Source: Celeribacter indicus (lineage in GTDB: Bacteria > Pseudomonadota > Alphaproteobacteria > Rhodobacterales > Rhodobacteraceae). From it: a stretch of DNA of 64,000 bases. The notes below the pieces were generated by a model. It saw only the letters and a list, made by a program, of their open reading frames with translations. It searched no databases and had not been told where the DNA came from. Below, one piece after another: positions 42,410 to 43,482 of this stretch. Position numbers and translations under genes: made by a program. The first letter of the stretch is position 1; every line of letters begins with the position of its first letter. The stretch spans positions 3,410,001-3,474,000 of the forward strand of contig NZ_CP004393.1 in assembly GCF_000819565.1 (NCBI RefSeq), given 5' to 3'.

Positions 42410-42453
42410 AAATGGTGGGTGATGAGAGACTCGAACTCCCGACATCTTCGGTG
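42410..42453 (-). repeat. Distal att-like repeat: orphan 3' half of tRNA-Val
   Basis: Perfect 44-base copy of the tRNA-Val 3' half. It runs from just past the CCA tail up to the last anticodon base, then diverges at once. The 5' half of a tRNA is missing, so it is a remnant and not a functional gene. Confidence 0.9.
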
Positions 42454-42619
42454 CAGGCGACACTAAATAGCCCACACCGATCTGATATTAAGTTAAAACC
42501 GTTTCCCACACCAAGACGGGAACACGGCGGACATCGCAAACAAAGCGGGAAAGTGGGACGCCCACACGCAAACCGCGGCTCAACATCGAAAATGTTGCGC
42601 ACTTATTTACACAAGATAC

Positions 42620-42656
42620 TTGCATTGCAAGTTCAAGTTGTGTATATAAATACACA
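42620..42656 (+). promoter_or_regulatory. hicA promoter and palindromic operator
   Basis: TTGCAT (42620-42625) and TATATA (42643-42648) are 17 bases apart and fit a sigma-70 promoter. The perfect palindrome TGTGTAT-ATAA-ATACACA (42639-42656) covers the -10 and reaches the first base of hicA, a good place for HicB binding. A second palindrome TTGCA-T-TGCAA is at 42620-42630. Confidence 0.7.
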
Positions 42657-42841
42657 TGGAAACGGACAGCCGAGAGATCATCAAGCGGCTTCTTTCCGAA
42701 GGTTTCGAAAAGGTCTCACAGAAGGGGTCACATGTGAAACTGAGGAAGGGCACCCGGACAGTGATCGTTCCACACCCCAAGCGGGATTTGCCGAGAGGCA
42801 CGGCCCGCCAAATCGCAAAGGCTGCGGGCTGGATCGAATGA
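42656..42841 (+). CDS. hicA: HicA mRNA interferase toxin
   Basis: 61-residue toxin that cleaves mRNA in translation. The dsRBD-like fold has the catalytic His26 in QKGSHVKLRKG and the family end HPKRDLPRGTARQIAKAAG. No Shine-Dalgarno sequence precedes the ATG, and the likely -10 is only about eight bases upstream, so the mRNA may be leaderless. hicB follows after 54 bases. Confidence 0.93.
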   Translation: METDSREIIKRLLSEGFEKVSQKGSHVKLRKGTRTVIVPHPKRDLPRGTARQIAKAAGWIE

Positions 42842-42895
42842 TCCGGCCCCGGCCTCCCCGAGGGGATCGGCTTAATGAAGGAAAGGCAAAATGCA

Positions 42896-43294
42896 ATGTA
42901 CTACTGGGCGATTGTCCATCACGACGAAGGAAGCGCATACGGCGTGACCTTCCCGGATCTGGACGGGTGCTTTGCCGCCTCTGACGATCAGGAAAAAGTC
43001 ATGCCGGCAGCAATCGAAGCTCTCGATCTGTATTTCGAGGATATGGCGGAAATTCCCGGCGCAATGTCTCTGGATGCAGTTCGGGAGACATACAGGGAAG
43101 ATCTCTTGGAAGGGGCCTATCTCATCCAGGTCCCGCTGATCCCGCGCACAACGAAATCCGTGCGCGTGAATCTCAGCTTTGATCAGGGGCTCCTGTCAGC
43201 CATCGACAGCGCCGCAGATCGTGTCGGATTAAACCGCTCTGCCTTCCTCGCGATGGCGGCAAAGGAAAAGATCCGAGACACCGAAGCTGCATGA
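42896..43294 (+). CDS. hicB: HicB antitoxin
   Basis: 132-residue antitoxin. The N-terminal degenerate RNase H-like domain (MYYWAIVHHDEGSAYGVTFP) neutralises HicA. The C-terminal ribbon-helix-helix (about 82-122, RVNLSFDQGLLSAIDSAADR) should bind the promoter palindrome. The start at 42896 matches the family N-terminus; an in-frame ATG at 42875 is possible. A clear terminator follows. Confidence 0.93.
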   Translation: MYYWAIVHHDEGSAYGVTFPDLDGCFAASDDQEKVMPAAIEALDLYFEDMAEIPGAMSLDAVRETYREDLLEGAYLIQVPLIPRTTKSVRVNLSFDQGLLSAIDSAADRVGLNRSAFLAMAAKEKIRDTEAA

Positions 43295-43301
43295 CGGAAG
43301 G

Positions 43302-43322
43302 GGCCGCGATCTGCGGCCTTTT
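43302..43322 (+). terminator. Intrinsic terminator of hicAB
   Basis: GGCCGC (43302-43307) and GCGGCC (43313-43318) pair around GATCT, followed directly by TTTT, eight bases after the hicB stop. Confidence 0.85.
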
Positions 43323-43438
43323 CAGACGCGCGGATATGGAGCACATGACTCGGAACCCCGTGCGTCTACTGCCTGACTTGGGGAAACGTGCCGCAGAGTT
43401 TGGGAAACACGAAAACGGAAAACCGCCAAGGGATTGCA

Positions 43439-43482
43439 AAATGGTGGGTGATGAGAGACTCGAACTCCCGACATCTTCGGTG
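43439..43482 (-). repeat. Proximal att-like repeat, inside intact tRNA-Val
   Basis: The same 44 bases as 42410-42453. It forms the 3' half of the functional tRNA-Val, so integration restored the tRNA. The junction falls at the third anticodon base, a common tyrosine-recombinase crossover place. Confidence 0.9.

Follow-up and report, generated by a model that had tools for sequence, protein, structure and literature searches.

Paracoccus phage vB_PbeS_Pben1 (MK291441; hereafter Pben1) is described as a complete inducible phage of 39.9 kb with an intergenic attachment (att) site, and its hicAB genes stabilised a plasmid in Paracoccus versutus over 30 generations (PMC6536676). The pair is also listed in a review of HicAB systems (PMC11594946). 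In the Pben1 record a tRNA-Val(TAC) gene adjoins the integrase gene, and the published att sequence, although termed intergenic, matches the tRNA-Val anticodon arm at 19 of 20 bases (record positions 1–20). Grounded or defective prophages, as portrayed in PMC6379469, have lost excision functions while some of their genes stay.

Here we describe an element of about 1 kb in Celeribacter indicus, in which hicAB are the sole open genes recognised. It lies within a stretch of 64,000 nucleotides (contig NZ_CP004393.1, positions 3,410,001 to 3,474,000), referred to below as the window, and all positions are those of the window. Pben1 resembles it in carrying hicAB with a similar operator palindrome and in having an integrase (61% identical to that of another genome of the genus, G018) which adjoins tRNA-Val(TAC), as do the integrase kin of our element. 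It differs in that its HicB is only 36% identical and its hicAB genes lie near CI/Cro genes rather than at the element end. The nearest hicAB pair with known context (HicA 72%, HicB 60%) is located in genome G111, 4.4 kb inside the distal att end of a prophage-like element in tRNA-Val(CAC), and has the same orientation; that element, however, is 47 kb long and has an integrase of another type together with terminase and tail genes. The loss of excision functions with survival of some genes is also what we propose here, and the locus is an unusually clean new example of this known kind of remnant, differing from grounded prophages in its small size and gene content. No description of it was found in the portion of the open-licence literature covered.

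An insertion in tRNA-Val(TAC)

ARAGORN placed an intact tRNA-Val(TAC) gene (43442–43517) and two identical tRNA-Asp(GTC) genes (42178–42254 and 42055–42131, within a 78-bp identical repeat) in the order Val, Asp, Asp, each on the minus strand. Two 44-bp copies of the tRNA-Val(TAC) 3′ half, identical at 44 of 44 positions and also on the minus strand, flank the block between Val and the first Asp gene. The proximal copy (43439–43482) lies within the intact tRNA-Val, and the distal copy (42410–42453) is a displaced 3′ half, so that the tRNA gene is rebuilt at one end of the element and the att repeat stands at the other. This pair is the only exact repeat of at least 40 bp in the window besides the duplicated tRNA-Asp gene. 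The block between the copies has a GC content of 54.9%, compared with 68.1% in the 5-kb flanks, and in a scan of 1260 segments of 985 bp an equally low value was found only in the segment from 42451, which is the element itself. A preliminary description of this DNA had proposed an AT-richer block, flanked by identical 44-base copies and splitting a Val-Asp-Asp tRNA cluster, and this layout was confirmed.

The acceptor stem of the tRNA-Val(TAC) at 43442–43517 reads GGGTGAT/ATCACCC, and all 76 bases of the gene are identical to those of Salipiger pallidus and Alloyangia pacifica. In the 18 other genomes of the genus examined, the corresponding stem is GGGTCGT/ACGACCC. Since both att copies carry the GGGTGAT/ATCACCC type, a single integration is no simple explanation of the stem swap.

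The preliminary description would have been contradicted by the same hicAB genes occurring here in all relatives, and it called for a search for empty sites. In the genus set, which comprises the genome carrying the window (G000) and 19 others, hicAB DNA was matched in none of the 19 other genomes, with at most 22 first-look candidates scored per genome; G017, which is 85% complete, matched no part of the query. At the DNA level and within the genus, the description thus withstood its refuting condition. The protein-level search for HicB in the genus covered G000, G011 and G018. An empty site was found in G004, where the Val-Asp gap is 159 bp without the element, compared with 158 bp between the distal att copy and tRNA-Asp in G000; 113 bp of these gaps align at 82%. 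Both tRNA-Asp genes were present at 159 to 1161 bp, within the stretch examined, in 10 of the 18 other genomes whose tRNA-Val(TAC) locus was compared. The remaining eight lack the full pair within that stretch; in two of them, G012 and G013, it lies past a distal tRNA-Val fragment. On these comparisons of sequence, the hicAB block is an insertion into tRNA-Val(TAC).

The hicAB pair and its signals

The hicA gene (42656–42841, plus strand) encodes 61 amino acids with a match to PF07927 (1.3e-18). It is followed by hicB (42875–43294, plus strand), which encodes 139 amino acids from the first ATG, or 132 from 42896, and matches PF15919 (1.8e-21) and the HicB-like PHROG 497 (7.3e-26). Both reading frames are open and lie in one operon; by its domains and operon structure the pair qualifies as a predicted HicAB type II toxin-antitoxin system. 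A palindrome, TGTGTAT-N4-ATACACA, overlaps the hicA start (42639–42656, plus strand) and is likely to be an operator, a similar palindrome being located upstream of hicA in seven of 17 other loci; two of these seven, in Pben1 and in a viral contig, have the same sequence at this point. A promoter had been proposed within the block, and a sigma-70 scan returned none. The proposed terminator stood in part: a hairpin after hicB, with a fold energy of −19.5 kcal/mol (43297–43323, plus strand), ends in TTTTC and may act as one, although it is absent from the list of a terminator scan that needs five T residues.

Neither HicA nor HicB matched PADLOC, and a search of GTDB contigs and IMG/VR with HicB gave no relatives, this search needing exact peptide words and perhaps excluding the near relatives of the window. 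HicB proteins closer than that of G111 (89%, 82% and, in Celeribacter halophilus, 86%, P0004) are all without genomic context. A 97-residue HicB (P0008) on a contig of 471,604 bases is identical to the C-terminal part of the window HicB, and perhaps comes from another assembly of the same species or reflects another start call.

Integrase tail and attachment arms

The block had been said to encode only HicA and HicB. We found instead that the DNA from 43323 has 81% identity over 121 bp to a stretch beside the tRNA-Val(TAC) gene of G018, where an open integrase gene of 384 amino acids has its 3′ end. The segment at 43323–43438 (plus strand) is thus the 3′-terminal part of a tyrosine-integrase gene and at the same time the proximal att arm. 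Its 33 codons (43324–43422) show 73% amino acid identity to the intact G018 integrase and begin two codons past the tyrosine of the EHYARRA motif, which we take to be the catalytic tyrosine of tyrosine recombinases. The tail is next to tRNA-Val(TAC) and convergent with it, as is the intact gene in G018. The window is not the only place where a tail has been left at tRNA-Val: in G018 the same tail accompanies a second, outer att copy, and a further one lies at the distal end of the tRNA-Val(CAC) island. In the first of these loci (G018:C1:1008398-1038649; L032, L033), a 30-kb island occupies tRNA-Val(TAC), and outward of it lies the second att copy, which has an integrase tail of its own, a layout which suggests tandem integrations in which the older integrase was lost.

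The distal att arm (42493–42558, plus strand) is homologous to the distal arms of elements in Salipiger pallidus and Alloyangia pacifica. The alignment scores of 40 and 46, respectively, were reached by none of 500 shuffles each (maxima 37 and 35), and the best of 128 control segments scored 23. In addition, GTTTCCCA lies at the same offset from att in the window and in both of these elements. Comparison of the arm with the distal ends in G418, G415 and G018 was unconvincing (15, 89 and 403 of 500 shuffles, respectively), although in G418 GTTTCCCA is present at the same offset. The integrase tail contains two TTGGGAAA-type motifs, one of them exact. Judging from their position and conservation, the motifs in both arms would be integrase arm sites; one of the four, the second distal motif, is degenerate.

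Extension of the 44-bp repeat gives 51 bp at 94% identity, with three differences that all fall in the last seven bases (42454–42460 in the distal copy). On the tRNA strand the shared part begins at C36, the third anticodon base, as the preliminary description had noted; the 44 bp are probably not the true att limit, as related elements continue TAAACGA where the window has CAGGCGA. Eight other TAC-type distal copies (seven from genus or named elements, and G012) continue TAAAC and a ninth, in G253, continues TAAA, a count which includes L041 and G253. Among distal copies in tRNA-Val(CAC), L036 and L094 keep the loop and L043 and L044, which belong to another integrase type, lose it. Loss of identity before the anticodon loop in L043 and L044 argues against the altered core being decisive, and slightly raises the likelihood of movement in trans. 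The correspondence of the Pben1 att site to the anticodon arm indicates that strand exchange probably takes place there, and that excision of the window element is probably impaired. The chance of three changes falling within the last seven of 51 positions is low (p 0.0017), so that decay after integration and an attP whose end already differed when the element integrated are equally likely.

A displaced tRNA-Val(TAC) 3′ half also occurs in G253 (G253:C20:333490-334932; L131, L170), 1.1 kb from a hicB gene at a contig end. We rejected it as another case of hicAB near a tRNA-Val fragment, as hicB is alone on the contig, with no hicA detected.

With the integrase as query, 11 of 394 genomes from the host's family (one per genus as a rule) were matched. 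All four full-length matches (55–65% identity, one with an internal stop) lie beside tRNA-Val(TAC); this count excludes the seven weak matches (29–32%), five of which lie beside tmRNA. In GTDB contigs, 14 loci were found, two of which were excluded at 28–29% identity; 11 of the 12 retained, named loci adjoin tRNA-Val(TAC), and the twelfth, L098, lies on a short contig that has no tRNA. Three loci appear to come from genomes in both the family and the GTDB sets. The integrase was also found on 12 IMG/VR viral contigs (13 loci, one weak match excluded), some being the same elements as in named genomes, and the best match among 50,697 phage records was the Pben1 integrase. The att copies are 42.0 kb apart in Alloyangia pacifica, 46.1 kb in Oceaniglobus and 46.5 kb in Salipiger pallidus, and the 42-kb Alloyangia pacifica element, bounded by identical att copies, has genes for terminase, portal and tail-fibre proteins. 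The integrase family is tied to tRNA-Val(TAC) and largely to phages. In G019, each tRNA-Val isoacceptor gene has an integrase match beside it (G019:C1:752744 and G019:C1:1627932); the two are of equal score, contain one TAG each and possibly represent one island in both tRNA-Val sites.

No hicAB genes were found in the sequence around the 12 named integrase loci, which extended at most 10 kb to either side (less at contig ends). A search of 26 genomes or records turned up HicB in three (Pben1, G111 and a viral contig), and in two of the 25 that bear the integrase, L099 being outside the HicB count. From these figures hicAB is not the usual cargo of this integrase family.

Origin of the element

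The integrase tail and the distal arm match decide how the element is to be read: we regard it as very probably the stub of a prophage (or island) that retains both att arms and hicAB and has lost the integrase body. A temperate phage, or an island with the same integrase, would have entered tRNA-Val(TAC) at the anticodon arm, restoring the tRNA gene with the element's own 3′ half and displacing the old 3′ half outward. The interior would subsequently have been lost, presumably by deletion, leaving the distal att arm, the hicAB transcription unit and the last 33 or so integrase codons, which include the proximal att arm. This fits what is present, an insertion with an integrase tail, both arms and open hicAB frames. 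The absence of hicAB DNA from all 19 other genus genomes and the empty site in G004 favour the stub, as does the position of hicAB near the distal end of the G111 element; the pair would then probably have been cargo of the original element. Against this, hicAB is rare with this integrase family (0/12 loci; HicB in 2/25), the G111 element differs in integrase type and sits in the other tRNA-Val, the distal ends of G418, G415 and G018 align unconvincingly with the window arm, and 44 bp of identity beside three changes in seven bases is unlike plain decay. The stub accounts for every feature except this sharp edge of repeat identity. A phage rather than an island origin seems likely from the relatives; the element has no structural gene left, and the G018 island is at most a putative phage.

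The rarity of hicAB beside this integrase family, and the neat fit of the unit from operator to terminator between the arms, would also be expected had the stub formed first and hicAB entered later in an independent event. The occurrence of hicAB within tRNA-Val-linked phages or prophages (Pben1, G111) counts against this sequence of events, which we consider improbable. More doubtful still is a non-autonomous mini-element, in which att arms around a toxin-antitoxin pair travel by means of an integrase borrowed from a related tRNA-Val phage, whether resident or infecting, and hold the site by addiction. Both arms and the core are present, related integrases are common in the host's family and the 44-bp copies are still identical. 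The core matches over 44 bases and differs at three of the next seven, the point of strand exchange being placed by inference. However, the three altered bases fall in the anticodon loop where nine other TAC-type copies keep TAAA, and the second distal motif is degenerate. DNA-level searches found the unit in none of the 19 other genus genomes nor in the plasmid set, and there is no second copy in G000. A cognate integrase is likewise missing from G000: the G018 integrase matches only the tail (71%) plus one sequence at 27%, and the nine PF00589 matches (eight above the cut-off) lie within 1.5 kb of tRNA-Tyr in one case, of tRNA-Leu in two and of no tRNA in six. The preliminary description had suggested a minimal cargo moved in trans, perhaps by an integrase elsewhere using the same tRNA; the kept arms are the only positive evidence for it. 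Finally, a local tRNA duplication beside an old chromosomal hicAB pair, with no insertion at all, might be entertained as the adjacent tRNA-Asp gene is duplicated. The integrase tail already contradicts it, as do the empty site, the absence from the genus and the att arms, and we give it virtually no credence.

The prophage or island stub remains our preferred reading, and it corresponds to the other suggestion of the preliminary description, a remnant stabilised by its toxin-antitoxin pair. The remnant nature and the att character of the repeats were upheld by the empty site in G004, the att repeats with a rebuilt tRNA, the 3′ tail of the integrase and arms that match phage-type elements. The Pben1 hicAB genes offer an analogy that makes stabilisation by the pair plausible; the pair may have been retained because its loss is costly, and the stub would now be immobile.

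Such a stub passes for a self-contained mini-element, and before movement in trans is invoked for att-flanked units that appear to be ‘integrase-less’, these should be examined for the arms of known phages and for an integrase tail. Should the trans reading be true after all, the element would offer a very small natural substrate for the study of helper-driven integration. As a probable stub, it illustrates the extent to which a prophage or island integrated in a tRNA gene can shrink while its toxin-antitoxin pair survives.
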